From: Gemmatimonadota bacterium
GTDB taxonomy: Bacteria > 4572-55 > J002
Assembly (NCBI GenBank): GCA_003697105.1
Contig: RFFQ01000139.1
Coordinates: forward strand, 1-13,772
Reading direction: 5' to 3'
Length of the DNA: 13,772 bases
Numbering within the stretch: the first letter of the stretch is position 1; every line of letters begins with the position of its first letter. Below are positions 2,172 to 12,800 of the stretch, piece by piece. The notes below the pieces were generated by a model that did no database searches, was not told the DNA's origin, and was given only the letters and a program-made list of their open reading frames with translations. A program made the translations under genes and the position numbers.

Positions 2172-5100
2172 TTATTTGTCCGTTGGATGGTTTGAGGATC
2201 GGGACGCAAGATACTCATAGTGTTTCCAGCGCCGGTCCACATCCGCTTGTGCCAGTTTGAATAAGCGTTCGGCGATGTCAGGTTTACTCTTGGTGAGCAT
2301 TCGGAACCGATTTTCCATATTCAGATATTCAATAACGGCTTTCTTCGGTGCTTTGGAATCCAAACTCAAGGGATTTTCTCCTGCTTCGGCCCGGAGCGGG
2401 TTGTAGCGATACAACAACCACTGACCCGTATTGACCGCCATTTTTTGATTCTCCATTGCTTTTGCCATATTGATTCCATGTGCAATACAATGGCTGTAAG
2501 CGATGATCAACGAGGGTCCTTGGTATGCTTCGGCTTCGATAAAGGCACGCAAGGTGTGCATATCCCGCGCCCCCATTGCCACACTCGCGACATAGACATT
2601 GCCGTAGCTCATCGCCATCAGACCGAGGTCTTTTTTACCGGCTGGGCGTCCGGCAGCGGAGAATTTGGCAATAGCACCGCGTGGAGTGGCTTTAGAGGTT
2701 TGCCCACCGGTATTGGAGTAAACTTCGGTATCCAGTACGAGGATATTTACATCACGTCCGCTTGCCAGCACATGATCCAAGCCGCCATAACCGATGTCGT
2801 ATGCCCATCCATCACCACCGATGATCCAAACGCTTTGTTTAACCAGATTATCTGCCAGAGTAAGCAACTGTTTGGCATCGATAGTGTCCAAATCGCGAAG
2901 TTTTTGCTTGAGGAGGGCAACTCGTTCCCGTTGCTCATAAATACCGGCTTCGTCTCGTTGATCGGCAGTTAAAAGGGCAGTTGCCAGATCGTCGCCAATA
3001 GTACCGGCGAGTTTCTGGACTAACTCTCGGGCGTATTCTTGTTTTTTATCGATCGCGAGGCGGATTCCCAGCCCAAATTCGGCATTGTCTTCAAAGAGGG
3101 AGTTTGACCATGCGGGACCGCGTCCTTCTCTATTTTTTGTCCAGGGTGTTGTGGGTAAATTTCCGCCATAGATGGAGGAACAGCCCGTGGCATTGGCAAC
3201 CACCATCCGGTCTCCAAATAATTGGGTCGCAAGCTTGACATAGGGGGTTTCCCCACAGCCGGCACATGCTCCCGAAAACTCGAACAACGGGAGTTGTAAT
3301 TGTTGTTGCGGTAGCTTGGTAACCTCAATATTCCGCCGGTCAACTTCTGGGAGAGAGAGGAAGAACTCCCAATTTTCTCGCTCGGTGTCGCGTAGCGGGG
3401 GTTGGGGTGCCATGTTGATCGCTTTGAGCCGTGTTTGGGTCTTGTTCTTTGCCGGGCAAACTTCAACGCATAGCTCACAACCGGTACAATCTTCCGGAGC
3501 GACTTGTAGGGTGTATTTCATCCCCGACCACGCTTTGTCACGGGCGTCTGTGGATTTAAATGTTGCCGGGGCATCTTTCAAGAGATCGGGGTCGTACACT
3601 TTCTGGCGAATCACTCCGTGCGGGCAGACCAAGGAACACTTGCCACATTGGATACACACGTCGGGGTCCCAAACGGGAATTTCCAGCGCAATATTGCGTT
3701 TTTCCCACTGGGTTGTGCCGGTTGGGTATGTACCATCTTCTGGAAAACAACTGACCGGTAGATCATCACCCTGCCCCGCCATAATTTTAGCGAGAACATT
3801 GCGGACGAATTCCGGCGCACGTTCCGAGACCGTTGGCGGCTGTTCGCGGCGGCTGGTGACTGCACCCGGAATTTCGACTTCGTGCAGGTGTGCCAGCGCT
3901 TGGTCCACCGCATTGATATTCATCTGAACAATATGATCTCCTTTTCGTCCGTAAGTCTTCTTGATGGCGTCTTTAATGGCGCGAATTGCTTCTTCTTTGG
4001 GTAGCACGCTGGAAATCGCAAAAAAGCAGGTTTGCATCACGGTGTTAATACGGTTGCCCATGCCGGCATTTTTAGCGACATCATAGGCATCAATCACATA
4101 CAGTTTAATTTGTTTCTCGATAATCTGTTCTTGATAGTTCCGGGGTAGCGTATCCCAGACCTCATCCACACCGGCTTGCGTGTTTAGGAGAAATGTACCA
4201 CCGGGAACAAGTGATTTTAGCATATCATAGCGCTCTAGAAAAACTGTTTGATGACACGCCACAAAATTTGCTTTGCTGATTAAATAAGAAGACCGGATAG
4301 GCTCGGGTCCAAAGCGCAAGTGTGAAACCGTCACCGCGCCCGCTTTTTTGGAATCATAGACAAAATAGCCTTGGGCGTAGTTATCGGTATTTTCCCCGAT
4401 GATCTTGATCGAATTTTTGTTGGCGCCAACCGTACCATCAGACCCCAAACCATAAAAGAGCGCCCGTACCACATTATCGGATTCGGTGGAAAATTCGGGA
4501 TCGTAATCAAGACTGGTATGGGTTACATCATCGTTGATGCCAATGGTGAAATGATTTTTGGGGATGTCTTTTTTCAGTTCGTCGTAAATTCCCTTCACCA
4601 TTGCTGGGGTGAATTCCTTGGAAGACAAGCCGTACCGTCCTCCGATAACCTTTGGCAAGGCGTCGAATTTCGCCCCGCCATTGTTCATGCTCTCGTACAG
4701 CGCATTCACCGTATCCTGATAGAGGGGTTCCCCTAGGCTACCCGGCTCTTTGGTGCGGTCTAACACGGCGATGGCTTTTGCCGATGCCGGAAGGGCTTTG
4801 ATAAATTGTTCCATACTAAACGGACGATACAGCCGGACTTTCAGCAAACCCACACTTTCGCCTTTATCATTGAGATAATCCACCGTTTCATGAATGGCTT
4901 CACTACCCGATCCCATGCAAACAATAACTCGATCCGCATCTGGTGCGCCGACATAATCAAATAGATGGTATTGGCGCCCAACCAACTGGGCGAACTTATC
5001 CATTGCGTCCTGCATAATCGTCGGAGCCTTTTGATAATACGGATTGACGGTTTCCCGCGCTTGGAAAAAGACATCCGGATTTTGGGCCGTACCGCGTAAT

Positions 5101-5741
5101 ACCGGATTCTCTGGATTGAGACACCGTTGCCGGTGCTCGAAGACCAATTGGTCATCGATCATCGTCCGCATATCGTCTTCCGTCAATTGCTCAATTTTGG
5201 AAACCTCATGCGATACCCGAAAGCCTTCAAAGAAGTGAACAAACGGTATTCGAGCTTTCAGTGCCGCCGCTTGCGAAATCAGTGCAAAGTCCATCGCTTC
5301 CTGTACGGACCCGGAAGCAAGCAAGCCAAAGCCGGTTGCACGCGTCGCCATCACATCGCTATGGTCTCCAAAAATAGAGAGTGCCTGCGCCGCGATAGAG
5401 CGGGCTGACACATGAAATACCGTCGGCGTCAATTCTCCAGCGATTTTATACATGTTTGGAATCATCAATAGGAGACCTTGCGAAGCGGTAAAGGTGGTTG
5501 TTAGCGCCCCACCCTGTAGAGCACCGTGAACCGCGCCGGAGGCACCACCCTCGCTCTGCATTTCCACTACGGTTGGAACCGTGCCCCAGATATTGGGGAC
5601 ATTTTCCGAAGCCCACTGGTCTGCCCACTCCCCCATCGGTGAAGAGGGGGTAATCGGATAAATGGCAATGACTTCGTTGATGCGGTGTGCCACATACGCC
5701 ACCGCTTCATTGCCATCCAGAGTGATAAATTGTCGTTGCAT
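2172..5741 (-). CDS. nifJ: Pyruvate:ferredoxin (flavodoxin) oxidoreductase
   Basis: This 1189-aa one-chain enzyme is of normal length. It oxidises pyruvate and CoA to acetyl-CoA and CO2 and passes electrons to ferredoxin or flavodoxin in the cytoplasm. The N-terminal domain holds YPITPSSPMGEWADQWA (T31) and VEMQSEGGASGA (E64), with R114 in VSARS; all three match catalytic residues of the characterised Desulfovibrio enzyme. A two-[4Fe-4S] ferredoxin insert carries C696/699/702/706 and C752/755/758/762. The thiamine diphosphate domain has GDGWAYDIGYGG (976-987) and EVYSNTGGQ (1006-1014). The proximal cluster cysteines C826, C829, C854 and C1085 are present. All expected functional residues are therefore intact. 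The start ATG follows GGGGAG at good spacing. It is the first gene of a two-gene unit and reads away from the hyp operon terminator. Its reduced ferredoxin is a natural partner for the hydrogenase that the neighbouring genes mature (inference). Confidence 0.97.
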   Translation of the reverse strand: MQRQFITLDGNEAVAYVAHRINEVIAIYPITPSSPMGEWADQWASENVPNIWGTVPTVVEMQSEGGASGAVHGALQGGALTTTFTASQGLLLMIPNMYKIAGELTPTVFHVSARSIAAQALSIFGDHSDVMATRATGFGLLASGSVQEAMDFALISQAAALKARIPFVHFFEGFRVSHEVSKIEQLTEDDMRTMIDDQLVFEHRQRCLNPENPVLRGTAQNPDVFFQARETVNPYYQKAPTIMQDAMDKFAQLVGRQYHLFDYVGAPDADRVIVCMGSGSEAIHETVDYLNDKGESVGLLKVRLYRPFSMEQFIKALPASAKAIAVLDRTKEPGSLGEPLYQDTVNALYESMNNGGAKFDALPKVIGGRYGLSSKEFTPAMVKGIYDELKKDIPKNHFTIGINDDVTHTSLDYDPEFSTESDNVVRALFYGLGSDGTVGANKNSIKIIGENTDNYAQGYFVYDSKKAGAVTVSHLRFGPEPIRSSYLISKANFVACHQTVFLERYDMLKSLVPGGTFLLNTQAGVDEVWDTLPRNYQEQIIEKQIKLYVIDAYDVAKNAGMGNRINTVMQTCFFAISSVLPKEEAIRAIKDAIKKTYGRKGDHIVQMNINAVDQALAHLHEVEIPGAVTSRREQPPTVSERAPEFVRNVLAKIMAGQGDDLPVSCFPEDGTYPTGTTQWEKRNIALEIPVWDPDVCIQCGKCSLVCPHGVIRQKVYDPDLLKDAPATFKSTDARDKAWSGMKYTLQVAPEDCTGCELCVEVCPAKNKTQTRLKAINMAPQPPLRDTERENWEFFLSLPEVDRRNIEVTKLPQQQLQLPLFEFSGACAGCGETPYVKLATQLFGDRMVVANATGCSSIYGGNLPTTPWTKNREGRGPAWSNSLFEDNAEFGLGIRLAIDKKQEYARELVQKLAGTIGDDLATALLTADQRDEAGIYEQRERVALLKQKLRDLDTIDAKQLLTLADNLVKQSVWIIGGDGWAYDIGYGGLDHVLASGRDVNILVLDTEVYSNTGGQTSKATPRGAIAKFSAAGRPAGKKDLGLMAMSYGNVYVASVAMGARDMHTLRAFIEAEAYQGPSLIIAYSHCIAHGINMAKAMENQKMAVNTGQWLLYRYNPLRAEAGENPLSLDSKAPKKAVIEYLNMENRFRMLTKSKPDIAERLFKLAQADVDRRWKHYEYLASRSSNHPTDK

Positions 5742-5956: not shown

Positions 5957-6232
5957 TTAAGATGTGTCCGAAGCGTCACCACCGGTTTCAGTGAGTTCTG
6001 CCAACTCGCCCATTTCCCGCAGGTACTCAAATACCTGATTTGCTTCAGCTTCATCCACCACATTTAAGGCGAATCCCACATGTACCAGTACGTAATCCCC
6101 GATTTTGGCTTCCGGGACATACGCCAGATTGACTTCTTTCTGGATACCGCCAAAACTGACTTTACCGGTGCGCAATAGGGGGTCGCCGGTGTCTTGAATG
6201 GTGGTGATTTTACCGGGTACCGCTAAGCACAT
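5957..6232 (-). CDS. hypC: [NiFe]-hydrogenase maturation chaperone HypC
   Basis: The 91-aa product begins MCLAVPGKI, the family signature. C2 (after Met removal the N-terminal cysteine) binds the Fe(CN)2CO unit together with HypD and contacts the hydrogenase large-subunit precursor. The conserved histidine appears as H51 in VHVGFALN, and a helical tail VFEYLREMGELAEL follows. The last ten residues (TETGGDASDT...) are an acidic extension. The frame is open further upstream, but the ATG at 6230-6232 is chosen because MCLAVPG must be N-terminal and AGGAG sits just before it. This is the last gene of the operon, 73 nt after the small 71-aa gene. hypD, the obligate partner that usually follows hypC, is absent; a terminator comes next instead. 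Confidence 0.95.
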   Translation of the reverse strand: MCLAVPGKITTIQDTGDPLLRTGKVSFGGIQKEVNLAYVPEAKIGDYVLVHVGFALNVVDEAEANQVFEYLREMGELAELTETGGDASDTS

Positions 6233-6305
6233 AATTATTCTCCTGCATTGTTTTGATATAAAAAGTGAATCCACAGAACAATTTGAAGGGGGTCTTCCGT
6301 GGTGC

Positions 6306-6521
6306 TTAAATGGATTCAATTTCCTTCAGAATACCTTGAAGTGCCTCGATGATAGCTTCATTCCGGCAGATCATCTCTTCCTCGTTGCGGACATGTTCTG
6401 GGTTTTCGGTTTCACGGTCCAACTCTGTTTTAAATTTACGTACCAAATCTTGATGCATCGCAATATGTTTCTGAATAATGGATTTAACATGCTCTAAATC
6501 TGTTCGTAATTGGCGAGACAT
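6306..6521 (-). CDS. Small helical protein inside the hyp operon, unknown function
   Basis: This 71-aa protein lies between hypF (15-nt gap) and hypC (73-nt gap), behind a very strong AAGGAGG ribosome site, so it is very probably translated. It reads as two amphipathic helices. The first covers residues 4-36, with hydrophobic heptad positions L5, L9, V12, I16, L26 and F30, and with H19 and H23 occupying two of the core positions. A turn at N40-P41 follows, then a second helix (44-71) with M50, I57, L61, I64 and I68. A single C52 lies in the second helix. No signal peptide or membrane segment is visible. I do not recognise the family. Position suggests an accessory maturation role, such as a scaffold or metal binding through the H19-x3-H23 pair and C52, but that is only inference. 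Confidence 0.8.
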   Translation of the reverse strand: MSRQLRTDLEHVKSIIQKHIAMHQDLVRKFKTELDRETENPEHVRNEEEMICRNEAIIEALQGILKEIESI

Positions 6522-6536
6522 GTGCCCTCCTTTCCC

Positions 6537-8834
6537 CTATTGAACGGCGATAATTTGTCCCAGCGAGATTCCCCCGTCGTTAGGGGGAATCCGCTGGTGC
6601 CAATAGACCCGAAAATCATGCTGATTTAATTGTTCTATTATCGTTTCGGTGAGATATTTATTCTGGAAGCATCCTCCGCTGATAACCACCTTTTGTAAAC
6701 CGTGCCGCTGGGCTTGATCGACGATTATTTGGGTTAACATTTGATGGAACAGTTGAGCTATTTTTGCCCGGCAGGTGTTGGAGCGGATGTGTTGAATAAG
6801 ATACGTCAGCCATGGTTTTAAGGAAAGCGCATAATTTTTGGTTTGCATAATTTTTTGATTATCTTCAAACCAAACCTCACCCACACCTTCCTCAAAAGCC
6901 AAAAACTCCAACAACATCGCCGCCTGCCCCTCATAATTCATCACTTGACAACAATCCAACAATGATGCCATAGCATCAAATAACCGTCCCACACTAGATG
7001 TCATCGGACAATTCAACCCTTGCTTCAACATGGAGTGAATAATCTTCAATTCCGCCGCAGAAAATGCTTGTACTGAAGGCAGGTCCCTCCCCCACCCCCC
7101 AAAGACCTCATCCCCAAAATAATGATAGAGCAATCCTATTGCCGAGCGGCGCGGCTCCTTCACCGCAGTTTCGCCACCGGGGAGTGGAAAAGGTTCTATA
7201 CATGCCACACGTTCCCAGTCTAAATGCGTCCCTTGCAGAGACTTCCGGGCTGTAATGACGAAAAACTCGCCTCCCCAAATAGTACCATCGGTGCCGTATC
7301 CCGTACCATCCCACGAAACACCCAGCACGGGCGGATCAACCTCATTTTCTGCCATACACGCAAGCACATGCGCTACGTGATGCTGAACCCCCTTTTGCAC
7401 TAAGGGTTGTTTGCGCGCAAACTGGGTCGATAGGTAATCAGGGTGCAAATCGTGGGCAATAACCTCCGGTTGGACATCATACAACCGTTGAAAATCAGAC
7501 ACAACCCTCTGAAACGCACCAAACGCTTCTGCGGTTTCTAAATCGCCAATATGCTGGCTCAAAAAGACCTGATTTCCAACAGAAAGAGCCACCGTATTTT
7601 TTAGGTGTCCCCCCACTGCCAGACTTGGTTTCGATTGGGGATTAAGCATAGAAACCGAGATCGGTAGCGGGGCATATCCTCGGGCACGTCGTAGGATCAT
7701 TTCCCGCCCGCCCATCAGCCGGACGATAGAATCATCCACATGCCGTACAATCGGGCGGTTATGCACCAAGAACAGGTCGGCGATACCTGCCAAACGCTGT
7801 AATGCTTCGCGCTCATCCGTACAGATAGGTTCATCCGAAAGGTTACCGCTCGTAGCCACTACCGGAAATCCCAAATCCGCCAACAATAAATGGTGCAACG
7901 GGGTATAGGGTAGCATTACCCCTAAATAGGGATGCCCGGGCGCCACTTCGGTTGAAATGGAAATGTTACGGTGGCGTAACAAGAGTACAATCGGGGCTTC
8001 CGGGGATTGCAGTAATGCGGCTTCAGCATCCGAAACCACACAATCATACGCGATCATCTCCACCGAGGGATAAAACAGAGCAAACGGCTTTTCATCCCTT
8101 GCTTTAGCCTTGCGCAACCGTTGAACAGCACAGGTATTCCGGGCATCGACAATCAAATGGAAGCCACCTAATCCTTTAACAGCGACAATTTTTCCTTGCC
8201 GGATCGCCTCCTCCGCCAGCCGTAATGCGTCCTTATGGGTTGCCAATACTTCCCCGCCAGCGTTCCATAGTTGCAGATGCGGTCCACAAACGGGGCACGC
8301 ATTGGGTTGTGCATGGAAACGGCGGTCTAGGGGATTTTCGTACTCCGCTTGACACACCTCACACATTGGAAATGCCTTCATGGTTGTGTTTGGACGGTCA
8401 TACGGCAATGCTTCAATGATGCTAAAACGAGGACCACAGTTGGTACAATTGGTAAAGGGATAGCGATACCGCCGGTTTTGCGGATCAAAAATCTCGCGTC
8501 TGCAATCGGCACAAGTAGCCACATCCGGTAAGATCAGGGCATCTTTACGCCCTCGGGTATCGCTTTCACGAATCTTAAATGCCGTATAGCCCAGCGGGTC
8601 AAGAAAGTGCGATTCTAAGCTTTGAATACACGCTAGGGCGGGTTTTTCTGTTTTCAGGCGATTTATGAAATTATGTAAATCTGATTTATGACCTTCAACT
8701 TCAATCAAAACCCCTTGTGGCGAATTATTGACCCAGCCAACCAACCCCATTTCGTGCGCCAACCGGTAGATAAACGGGCGAAACCCCACGCCTTGTACCA
8801 CACCCCGAATGGAAAGCCGTAAACGAGTGTTCAC
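6537..8834 (-). CDS. hypF: Carbamoyltransferase HypF, hydrogenase CN-ligand synthesis
   Basis: HypF uses carbamoyl phosphate and ATP to transfer a carbamoyl group to the C-terminal cysteine of HypE, the source of the cyanide ligands of [NiFe] hydrogenase. The 765-aa product has the whole architecture. An acylphosphatase domain comes first (VQGVGFRPF with R19, GWVNN with N37). Two HypF zinc fingers follow (C108/C111/C130/C133 and C158/C161/C180/C183), then a YrdC-like domain (KGLGGFHL and TSGNLSDEP) and a Kae1-like C-terminal domain (HHVAHVLACMAE, SWDGTGYGTDGTIWGGEF, SGGCFQN, PPNDGGISLGQ). The frame is open up to 8891, but I chose the GTG at 8832-8834. It overlaps the hypB stop by four bases (GTGA), has AAGGGG 8 nt upstream, and puts the acylphosphatase motif at its normal place. 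Translational coupling with hypB is likely. HypE itself is not in the window. Confidence 0.96.
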   Translation of the reverse strand: MNTRLRLSIRGVVQGVGFRPFIYRLAHEMGLVGWVNNSPQGVLIEVEGHKSDLHNFINRLKTEKPALACIQSLESHFLDPLGYTAFKIRESDTRGRKDALILPDVATCADCRREIFDPQNRRYRYPFTNCTNCGPRFSIIEALPYDRPNTTMKAFPMCEVCQAEYENPLDRRFHAQPNACPVCGPHLQLWNAGGEVLATHKDALRLAEEAIRQGKIVAVKGLGGFHLIVDARNTCAVQRLRKAKARDEKPFALFYPSVEMIAYDCVVSDAEAALLQSPEAPIVLLLRHRNISISTEVAPGHPYLGVMLPYTPLHHLLLADLGFPVVATSGNLSDEPICTDEREALQRLAGIADLFLVHNRPIVRHVDDSIVRLMGGREMILRRARGYAPLPISVSMLNPQSKPSLAVGGHLKNTVALSVGNQVFLSQHIGDLETAEAFGAFQRVVSDFQRLYDVQPEVIAHDLHPDYLSTQFARKQPLVQKGVQHHVAHVLACMAENEVDPPVLGVSWDGTGYGTDGTIWGGEFFVITARKSLQGTHLDWERVACIEPFPLPGGETAVKEPRRSAIGLLYHYFGDEVFGGWGRDLPSVQAFSAAELKIIHSMLKQGLNCPMTSSVGRLFDAMASLLDCCQVMNYEGQAAMLLEFLAFEEGVGEVWFEDNQKIMQTKNYALSLKPWLTYLIQHIRSNTCRAKIAQLFHQMLTQIIVDQAQRHGLQKVVISGGCFQNKYLTETIIEQLNQHDFRVYWHQRIPPNDGGISLGQIIAVQ

Positions 8835-9475
8835 ACAACCAGCCCCTTGATCCACGCCAACCACTCCTCTACCCCTTCCCCGGTCCGGCAAGACATGCGA
8901 ATAATACGCATGTCCGGGTTCAGTGCTTTGATATCTGCAGTGAACTGAGCTTCATCAAAATCAATATAAGGTAGCAAGTCAATCTTGTTCAAGATGGTCA
9001 AATCGGCTGTACGGAACAATTTGGGATATTTGATCGGCTTGTCATGACCTTCCGGCACGCTTACGACGGCAATACGTTTGGTTTCGCCAAGGTCGAAACC
9101 AACTGGACAGACTAAATTACCGACATTCTCGATGATGATAATCTGTAAATTATGTAAATTAAAATTATCCAAAGTGCGCCACACCAAATTTGCCTCTAAG
9201 TGACATCCCCCCGCCGTGTTGATCTGGGTCACCGGCACGCCAAATTTCGCCACCCGCTCTGCATCCCGCGTGGTATCGGGATCACCTTCGATCACCCCAA
9301 AACGGAACTCCGCCTTAAGATGGCTTAAAGTGGTTTCAATTAAACTGGTCTTCCCTGAACCGGGCGCACTGATCAAATTCAGCCCAACAATGCCGTACTC
9401 TTCAAATTTCGCCCGAACCATCGCCGCCAGATCATCATTTGCTTTTAAGACCTTATGAACAACCTGAACTTCCAT
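8831..9475 (-). CDS. hypB: Hydrogenase nickel-incorporation GTPase HypB
   Basis: HypB is a dimeric GTPase that, with HypA, inserts nickel into the hydrogenase large subunit. The 214-aa product shows the P-loop APGSGKTS (37-44), EGDPDTTRDAERV (63-75), GGCHLEA with C91 and H92, NLVCPVGFDLGE with C123, and the guanine-specificity motif NKID (163-166). C91, H92 and C123 keep the spacing of the metal site at the GTPase dimer interface known from E. coli. The N-terminal CxxCGC high-affinity nickel motif and the His-rich nickel-storage stretch found in some relatives are both missing, so this is the short form. AAGGAG lies upstream of the ATG. The gene follows hypA after 117 nt and overlaps hypF by 4 nt. 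Confidence 0.96.
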   Translation of the reverse strand: MEVQVVHKVLKANDDLAAMVRAKFEEYGIVGLNLISAPGSGKTSLIETTLSHLKAEFRFGVIEGDPDTTRDAERVAKFGVPVTQINTAGGCHLEANLVWRTLDNFNLHNLQIIIIENVGNLVCPVGFDLGETKRIAVVSVPEGHDKPIKYPKLFRTADLTILNKIDLLPYIDFDEAQFTADIKALNPDMRIIRMSCRTGEGVEEWLAWIKGLVV

Positions 9476-9592: not shown

Positions 9593-9952
9593 TCAAAGCT
9601 CTCCGGCAGGATCAACAAATGTAATCGATTCCAAAATAAATTCGTCTCCTTGTTTGATCTCTCCCCCACTCGATTCACACTGGGGACAGACCCAAAAAAC
9701 ATCGTGCGGTTCAAACTCGGTATGGCACTGCTGGCATTTGATCTTCACCGGTACAACGTCCCATACCAAGTCAGCCGTTTCGGCAATCGTCCCTTTTGCC
9801 ATGACCTCAAACGCGAATTCCAAAATATCGGGCACGATATGTTGCAATTCACCAATTTGCAATTTGATTCTTTCCACTTTGGGATGACCATGCTCGGCGG
9901 CAATCTCTATCGTTTTATCCATCAAGGCTTGCATCAGGCTATATTCGTGCAT
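9593..9952 (-). CDS. hypA: Hydrogenase nickel/zinc metallochaperone HypA
   Basis: The 119-aa product begins MHEYSLMQAL; the N-terminal Met-His-Glu is the nickel site of HypA. Zinc is held by C73-x2-C76 and C89-x2-C92, both intact. LQIGELQHIVPDILEFAFEV is the family's conserved middle segment. The frame is open to a GTG at 9985, adding MFLLLLPETSI, but the nickel site requires the start at 9950-9952. The ribosome site before this ATG is weak (AGAGACC), unlike those of hypB, nifJ and the 71-aa gene. It works with HypB to deliver nickel. Confidence 0.95.
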   Translation of the reverse strand: MHEYSLMQALMDKTIEIAAEHGHPKVERIKLQIGELQHIVPDILEFAFEVMAKGTIAETADLVWDVVPVKIKCQQCHTEFEPHDVFWVCPQCESSGGEIKQGDEFILESITFVDPAGEL

Positions 9953-10037: not shown

Positions 10038-10511
10038 TTATACGGGTGGCACGGATGAAGACTGGTGCGGATCAACCAACCAGTGGACATGGCTGTAAAG
10101 CTTAGGCAGCGCGGCTTGAACCGGTTCGGATAACGTTTCGCCAAACTCCAGCGATCCAGCACCAATGGAGAGCATATGGGCTAACGGCGCCCGTCCATAG
10201 ACCGTTTTCGTGAGTGCCAACAATCCTGTGGGGCTAAAATGATGTGTCAAAGGACGACTTTCCAACGTATCTGGGTCAACCGGTGTCGCTAAAAACTCAC
10301 CCGGCGCCAAATCAATTGAAACATCAATAAAGATCACCACATCGACTTGTGCTAAGTCATCTGCCAATTCCGGTGTCAGTTGGTGAGCGGTTCGGATGGT
10401 AATATTCGTGTTTAAAGCAAAGGTTTGGGCTAAGTGTTCAGCGACCACCCAACCCAAACCGTCATCGGCACGCATCGGATTACCGTACCCGATAATGAGT
10501 ATTTGTGACAT
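10038..10511 (-). CDS. Hydrogenase maturation protease (HyaD/HycI type)
   Basis: This endopeptidase removes the C-terminal tail of the [NiFe]-hydrogenase large subunit after nickel insertion. The 157-aa product starts with ILIIGYGNPMRADDGLG (5-20), the family signature. D17, D63 in FIDVS and H90 or H91 in LTHHFSP match the three nickel ligands of HybD (Glu, Asp, His), with Asp in place of the first Glu. GRAPLAHMLSIGAGSLEFGE (107-125) matches the conserved second half. The C-terminal SSSVPPV tail is short and probably disordered. The ribosome site is weak (GGGTGG). The gene lies 51 nt after the Rrf2 regulator. Its presence implies a hydrogenase with a cleavable large-subunit tail elsewhere in the genome. 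Which group (hox/hya/hyc) cannot be told. Confidence 0.92.
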   Translation of the reverse strand: MSQILIIGYGNPMRADDGLGWVVAEHLAQTFALNTNITIRTAHQLTPELADDLAQVDVVIFIDVSIDLAPGEFLATPVDPDTLESRPLTHHFSPTGLLALTKTVYGRAPLAHMLSIGAGSLEFGETLSEPVQAALPKLYSHVHWLVDPHQSSSVPPV

Positions 10512-10562: not shown

Positions 10563-11042
10563 CTACCCACGGCGAATTTCCGCTCCGGTGGTAGATAGAT
10601 CGAAGGGCAACCGGTCCAACTGATGCCCTTGTACTCTCGCGGAGGCAAAGTCTGCAATGGAGACTTCGGTCAAATAATGGCGCATACTTTTCCGTAAATT
10701 ATGGCAAACCAAATCTAAGGTACAGGAGTGCCCTTCTTCACAGCGTTTCAAACCCAGCACACAACTCTCTAACCGGTTATCCAAATCTTCAAAAACATTA
10801 ATGATCTGGTACAATGTAATAGTAGCGGGGTCTTTCACTAAAGAAAATCCCCCATTGGGACCTTTAATCGAAGTCAGTATTTTTGCTTGAACCAGTTGTT
10901 GTAACAATTTGGATAAAAAATGTTTTGGGATATTCTCCTCCCGTGCAATGATCTCCCCCGCTACCGGGACATTATCTTTTAAGCTAGCAATATACGCCAC
11001 TGCCCGCAGTCCATATTGCGCTGGTTTGGAAAACAAAACCAT
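10563..11042 (-). CDS. Rrf2-family transcriptional regulator with four cysteines
   Basis: The 159-aa product has the Rrf2 winged-helix pattern: YGLRAVAYIASL (10-21), helix-turn-helix ENIPKHFLSKLLQQLVQAKIL (36-56), and the wing KGPNGGFSL (60-68). C94, C101 and C107 sit where IscR-like members bind an Fe-S cluster (spacing 6 and 5, against 5 and 5 in IscR), and C113 is extra. The family includes IscR, NsrR, RsrR and CymR, which sense Fe-S status, nitric oxide, redox or cysteine. The cysteines favour an Fe-S sensor here, but the ligand is unproven. After residue 130 it has an unremarkable tail. GAGGAT precedes the ATG. It is the first gene of the hydrogenase maturation operon, so it probably controls that operon and itself (inference). 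Confidence 0.92.
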   Translation of the reverse strand: MVLFSKPAQYGLRAVAYIASLKDNVPVAGEIIAREENIPKHFLSKLLQQLVQAKILTSIKGPNGGFSLVKDPATITLYQIINVFEDLDNRLESCVLGLKRCEEGHSCTLDLVCHNLRKSMRHYLTEVSIADFASARVQGHQLDRLPFDLSTTGAEIRRG

Positions 11043-11417: not shown

Positions 11418-12800
11418 TTAAGTAGAAGACGCGCTCAGAAATTGGCGGATGTTATCTTCTACAGCGGCTTTAACAGCAAGGCTGGTTAATCCATGCTTCT
11501 GATACTGGGTTGCTAAAAAATCATCCAGTTGTGCCACCGCTTCTTTTAGTATCTCTTCCTGTTTGTCTGCCGGAAGCGCCCGGAACCGATCCAATAAGGG
11601 GTCAGGGGGCGAAGGCAAGCATCCGGTTGCGGTATCTGGAGTCGTCGGGGAAGGTGGGGGGGTTGGTTCAGCATAATCTGAAGGGGGTTTATAATCATCT
11701 TCAATACTCTTGCGCAAATACCCTTGCGGATTCTGCGAAATATGGCGGTGATGTACCTGCACCATCCAGTCATAAACAGCGATCTTCTCCTTAATCCGGT
11801 CTGGAGAGTACGTTTTGACCAATCCAGCCGCTGCTTTAGGAGTAATCTTGCGTTGGATCAATGCTTCAATTAACGTGGTTTCCGTTTCGGAAAATTCTTC
11901 CGCTTCATCGTTATCCACCACCTGACTTTTCACCTCAATAGCGTTCCGGGCAGGAGCAAATCGATAAATAATTTTGAGGTCTCCATTTTCCGTCCGGTAA
12001 CAGACATCGGAAAGAAAATCAAAATCATCTCGTAATTGATCATGGGCACGCTTTAGGGTCCGTTTCAGGTGGGAAGGCCGCTTATCTCGGATCGGCAACA
12101 GATCCGCGAGTTCCTGCAGAGACATCTTAAATTCGGGGTAGTGATTATAGCGCATCTTGGACAAAAAGCGATACAGGCGTTTGGTGAGAGGTGTACGCAT
12201 CGCCAAATATTTATCAATATCAACACTGCGGATAAAGCCATTGCGTACGCTTTCTACAAGCGCAGGGGAAACCACAATATAGCTAAGGGGCAGGGTACCA
12301 TCATTCTTCTTTTTCTTACCGGCTTTTTCCTCGTAAAGATGGTATTCGGCAAACAGATTAACATTACGGGTAACGTATTTTTTCGCTTTATTATCCCAAA
12401 AGGCGCGTTTAGCTTTAATTGATACGGTTTTTAAACGGTCCAGGGATCGTTCCAAGCGGTCATATTCCCGTTTGGAGGTATTCCACCGGAGTAGTTTTAA
12501 CAGTTGGTAACGGGTAAAGTAAATCCGGTCACCCTCAAAATTTTGGTCTTTCCAGAGTTTCATTAAGGCAAGATAAACGTCATAATCAATGGCAATGGGC
12601 AAGCCGTACTCTTCAGCTCCCGTGACAATCCATTCTTGCTTGACCAGTTTACCAGAATTGCGATCTTTGATATAACGACTAAATTTGATAGTTGCCTGAT
12701 CACCCGTTTGGCGTTGGGTAAGAAGGGCAAAGGGGAACTCTGCCAAATTCATTTCATCTTTTGTTAAAACCAGTAGTTCTTCTCGTTTAGGAGTGGTCAT
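11418..12800 (-). CDS. repA: Plasmid replication initiator, RPA family
   Basis: The 460-aa product carries features of the replication initiator protein A (RPA) family of plasmid proteins: MNLAEFPFALLTQR (17-30), EEYGLPIAIDYDVYLALMKLW (63-83), FTRYQLLKLLRWNTSKREYDRLERSLDRL (95-123) and LTKRLYRFLSKMRY (205-218). Such proteins bind iterons and start replication, and they have winged-helix DNA-binding domains. After about residue 300 it continues with an acidic stretch, a helical segment, a proline-rich linker (about 370-403) and a helical C-terminal part (404-460), which may be a separate interaction module. The start ATG follows GCGAGGT and a good promoter. Iterons lie on both sides. Residues are intact, so the gene appears functional. 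Confidence 0.88.
   Translation of the reverse strand: MTTPKREELLVLTKDEMNLAEFPFALLTQRQTGDQATIKFSRYIKDRNSGKLVKQEWIVTGAEEYGLPIAIDYDVYLALMKLWKDQNFEGDRIYFTRYQLLKLLRWNTSKREYDRLERSLDRLKTVSIKAKRAFWDNKAKKYVTRNVNLFAEYHLYEEKAGKKKKNDGTLPLSYIVVSPALVESVRNGFIRSVDIDKYLAMRTPLTKRLYRFLSKMRYNHYPEFKMSLQELADLLPIRDKRPSHLKRTLKRAHDQLRDDFDFLSDVCYRTENGDLKIIYRFAPARNAIEVKSQVVDNDEAEEFSETETTLIEALIQRKITPKAAAGLVKTYSPDRIKEKIAVYDWMVQVHHRHISQNPQGYLRKSIEDDYKPPSDYAEPTPPPSPTTPDTATGCLPSPPDPLLDRFRALPADKQEEILKEAVAQLDDFLATQYQKHGLTSLAVKAAVEDNIRQFLSASST

Follow-up and report, generated by a model that had tools for sequence, protein, structure and literature searches.

We report an orphan gene, ORF71, in the junction between the hydrogenase maturation genes hypF and hypC of a Gemmatimonadota bacterium, a junction that is normally closed, and we regard this as a firm new result. 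The gene lies on a contig of 13,772 nucleotides, the whole of which was analysed and is referred to here as the window. The genes run in the order Rrf2 regulator, maturation protease, hypA, hypB, hypF, ORF71 and hypC, followed by nifJ and a dihydroorotate-dehydrogenase-like gene, and the features on which the argument depends are as follows.

10038 to 10511, minus strand: hydrogenase maturation protease (TIGR00072)
9593 to 9952, minus strand: hypA (TIGR00100)
8831 to 9475, minus strand: hypB (TIGR00073)
6537 to 8834, minus strand: hypF (TIGR00143, 852.6 bits against a cut-off of 466.1), the upstream neighbour of ORF71
6526 to 6532, minus strand: AAGGAGG, the Shine-Dalgarno sequence of ORF71, 4 nt before its ATG
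6306 to 6521, minus strand: ORF71, a putative orphan alpha-helical hairpin protein of 71 amino acids (from the ORF call, coding statistics and AlphaFold2)
6233 to 6305, minus strand: the 73-nt spacer that separates ORF71 from hypC, in which the coding strand yielded no terminator and the RNA fold is no better than that of shuffles
5957 to 6232, minus strand: hypC (TIGR00074, 80.5 bits against a cut-off of 48), which follows ORF71 downstream and has a ribosome site of its own

The initial annotation had placed a 71-residue reading frame between hypF and hypC, and the frame was found exactly there on the minus strand, starting with an ATG at 6521, 15 nt past the hypF stop, and ending with a TAA at 6308-6306, 73 nt before the hypC ATG (6232). 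Its ribosome site, described in the same annotation as one of the clearest, is the strongest among the 11 window genes tested, with a duplex energy of -11.4 kcal/mol against -9.7 kcal/mol for the next best, as computed with the standard anti-SD sequence, which may differ from the 16S of the host genome. With codon frequencies trained on 47 long ORFs from other parts of its genome, ORF71 scores 0.28 bit per codon. None of 158 spurious ORFs, comparable in size and overlapping real genes, reaches this value (maximum 0.19, median -0.23); the median for 71-codon pieces of real genes is 0.21. The score computed from synonymous choices only is matched by 5 of 189 spurious ORFs and by none of 5000 random recodings, so that the coding signal is not just a matter of amino-acid composition. 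ORF71 is short and without homologues, as would befit a chance reading frame within an intergenic spacer, but such a frame should neither outscore every spurious ORF nor defeat all of the recodings, and the combination of GGAGG, an ATG and at least 71 codons is expected only 0.058 times per shuffled window; a chance origin is, on these figures, scarcely tenable. ORF71 is a real coding gene, and one that is presumably translated. The opposite-strand ORF at 6198-6497 has a weak codon score (0.06) and was rejected.

ORF71 is present as a single copy in its own genome, with no paralogue. No match was found in the only other genome of the same phylum and class that was compared (the family, order, class and phylum levels were searched), nor was a homologue found in six genomes carrying HypF matches. 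The closest match to the HypF of this operon comes from a Zixiibacteriota MAG (56% best-segment identity), and the 132 genomes examined from that phylum yielded no homologue of ORF71; three matches among them, at E 0.04-0.1, were to long frames of 207, 482 and 302 amino acids and, being of a number expected by chance, were set aside. The same result was obtained for 386 genomes from about 327 genera, for viral contigs, phages and plasmids, and for GTDB contigs, the last with a pattern scan sensitive to close relatives only. No profile of Pfam, NCBIfam, PHROGs or PADLOC matched above its cut-off, DUF6987 being rejected at E 0.019 with 15.2 bits where 26 are required, and the best hit of a PDB sequence search was a designed helical bundle (E 0.23). 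A helical sequence of 71 residues carries little signal, and very diverged relatives could be missed in such searches. Within a lineage represented by two species only, ORF71 thus appears to be a lineage-restricted orphan with no detectable homologue. The earlier statement that the protein is not known from standard hyp operons holds good, there being no family match and no counterpart at hypF-hypC in related operons.

The state of this junction in relatives was read from 30 oriented hypC loci of a related phylum, 29 of which have hypF upstream, the thirtieth being cut by the end of its contig. In all 29 the distance from the hypF stop to the hypC start lies between -29 and +50 bp (median 4), which leaves no room for an intervening gene, and ORF71 is accordingly absent from every one of them, as it is from loci L003-L007, where hypC directly follows hypF. 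The gap in the present genome is 304 bp and holds ORF71, with the adjoining ends of hypF and hypC intact; set against the spacing in the relatives, it is most simply read as an insertion in this lineage into a normally closed junction. The edges of the putative insertion show no clear mobile-element features and only short imperfect repeats. Other hyp operons with extra hypothetical ORFs at the same junction resemble this site and offer a precedent, by position only, for tolerated insertions. The class-mate genome, the only other of the phylum compared, has no HypC match, and so the insertion cannot be dated. With no HypC match there, it may also be that some members of the group do without [NiFe]-hydrogenase maturation.

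In the present genome the hyp cluster has also been rearranged and is split, since the only hypD match lies apart on a 4.2-kb contig, whereas hypD comes after hypC in loci L002-L007. An error of binning is unlikely, as the tetranucleotide composition of the contig fits the rest of the genome (r about 0.90-0.92 against longer contigs of its own genome and at most 0.63 against loci of other organisms).

The genes hypA, hypB, hypF, ORF71 and hypC are on the same strand and tightly spaced, the GTG start of hypF overlapping the hypB stop by 4 nt. No terminator was found on the coding strand around ORF71, and the spacer before hypC, with a fold z of 0.14 against shuffles and no Rfam match, gives no sign of an RNA element or attenuator. 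The position of the gene, its strong ribosome site and its codon adaptation together indicate that the product of ORF71 is probably synthesised alongside HypF and HypC, presumably by co-transcription, and co-expression with the hyp genes is to this extent probable. Upstream of the maturation genes lies a gene for an Rrf2-family protein (10563-11042, minus strand), which is a candidate for regulating the cluster in an iron-sulfur-responsive manner.

AlphaFold2, run without an alignment, gives two helices, 3-36 and 41-69, with a mean pLDDT of 95.9 and a pTM of 0.79, so that the helical hairpin suggested in the initial annotation is also the predicted fold, with the two helices antiparallel. Helical hairpins are often modelled confidently from a single sequence, and the model therefore backs the fold and not a function, about which a hairpin says nothing. 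In the best heptad register, the a and d positions are L5, L9, V12, I16, H19, H23, L26 and F30 in the first helix and V44, E47, I51, N54, I58, L61, L65 and I68 in the second; H19 and H23 are hence at core positions one helical turn apart, as had been noticed from the sequence. If the helices pair in antiparallel fashion about the turn at 37-40, H23 would face N54 in a typical buried polar layer. C52 falls at a 'b' position outside the core, and no His/Cys site is therefore completed in the monomer. A second hydrophobic stripe, formed by M50, I57, I64 and I71 of helix 2 and I20, V27 and L34 of helix 1, suggests self-association.

A Foldseek search with the model returned no match at an E of 0.001 or below. 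With VIA-align 2 the Z scores reach at most 10.7 and the top matches are unrelated generic hairpins and bundles, the tool's own guidance being that a helical match below Z ~13 may mean merely a common arrangement. Among the best overlaps (Z 10.2-10.7) are the ESCRT-III hairpin of CHMP4B and Snf7 and the coiled-coil arm of seryl-tRNA synthetase, which at about 10-16% identity share with ORF71 a common antiparallel arrangement only and carry no functional implication.

Our best explanation, to which as a whole we give a probability of about 0.4, is that ORF71 would be a helical adaptor which acts on the maturation machinery but is dispensable to it. The lineage-restricted orphan, once inserted at hypF-hypC, would share one transcript with hypA, hypB, hypF and hypC; its predicted hairpin would have a hydrophobic a/d seam interrupted by a buried polar layer of H19, H23 and N54, and would most likely pair with itself or with a partner into a helical bundle. 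As a non-catalytic adaptor it would pack its helices onto another product of the operon or onto the hydrogenase precursor, and such binding would tune how efficiently maturation proceeds in this lineage. In support, the genome retains the gene for a [NiFe]-hydrogenase large subunit, so that ORF71, lying between hypF and hypC, has its place in the hyp operon of a genome that bears a hydrogenase. Its gene stands beside those of HypA, HypB, HypF and HypC, on the same strand and probably on the same transcript, but its product matches none of their models, nor any other Hyp family model, and falls outside the conserved hypABCDEF set. As no homologue was found, it is from gene position only that ORF71 may be given a part in hydrogenase maturation, and the same is true of the accessory factor or scaffold envisaged in the initial annotation; co-occurrence with hyp genes cannot be shown for an orphan, which counts against the adaptor. 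The hyp operons of relatives do without ORF71, which cannot then be needed for maturation in general. We consider unlikely the more specific proposal of a lineage-specific maturation adaptor, without known homologues, that would act as a homodimer of hairpins with histidine in its buried layer and would keep hold of HypC, HypF or the large-subunit precursor while the cofactor is being assembled.

The adaptor is closely ahead of an explanation in which ORF71 is a real orphan but a passenger, acquired horizontally or newly arisen, which landed harmlessly at hypF-hypC and is expressed with no maturation role. We take this to be a serious possibility: none of the 29 relatives read has an open junction, the gene order is unlike theirs with hypD on another contig, a plasmid-type replication initiator is encoded on the same 13.8-kb contig, and every collection searched was empty of homologues. 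Host-adapted codon use and a strong ribosome site suggest instead that ORF71 has been selected for expression, and an arrival of this kind is not betrayed by clear repeats or mobile-element features at the edges. The RepA-type gene, together with a size and helical-hairpin fold resembling those of Rop, would also accommodate a regulatory or RNA-binding hairpin controlling the operon or a nearby replicon; a net charge of -4 is, however, unusual for an RNA binder, the window contains no known RNA element and no regulator family matches the sequence, all of which leave such a regulator very improbable. Rop is not among the fold-search matches listed, an absence that excludes nothing.

A small metal carrier, as put forward in the initial annotation, or an iron or nickel donor, in either case acting through H19, H23 and C52, is disfavoured and in our judgement most improbable. 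The two histidines lie one turn apart in the core, and the encapsulated ferritin-like hairpins EncC and Rru_A0973, which like ORF71 are small two-helix hairpins, are among the structural matches (Z 9.5-9.7), though tied with dozens of unrelated hairpins. The cysteine is away from the His face, H23 is opposite N54, no further Cys/His cluster is visible in the monomer and no family profile scores above its cut-off; a metal site formed by an oligomer is nevertheless conceivable. Inspection of the 71 residues revealed no ExxH, the metal-ligand motif in a helix by which the encapsulated ferritin-like hairpins are defined, and ORF71 differs from EncC and Rru_A0973 further in its identity of 8-9% and in that no encapsulin gene was seen in the window.

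Should the adaptor explanation be correct and ORF71 act in maturation, the highly conserved Hyp pathway admits lineage-specific helpers, and HypC or HypF would gain a new partner that is small and easy to test. If it has no such role, however, ORF71 is one more orphan, and even a normally closed operon junction takes an insertion.

Four further genes of the window are also on the minus strand. Replication initiator protein A is encoded at 11418-12800 (PF10134, E 9e-16) and, compared with the RepA of planctomycete plasmids, shows 31-33% identity over 78%, such that all or part of the contig may be a replicon, either plasmid-like or integrated. The hyp genes are followed directly downstream by a nifJ-type pyruvate:ferredoxin oxidoreductase (2172-5741), after which comes the dihydroorotate-dehydrogenase-like gene, of the PRK07565 type (1092-2099). 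A protein of about 239 amino acids encoded at 189-908 begins with a signal-like N-terminus, matches nothing in NCBIfam and, as a guess from sequence, may be an outer-membrane beta-barrel.
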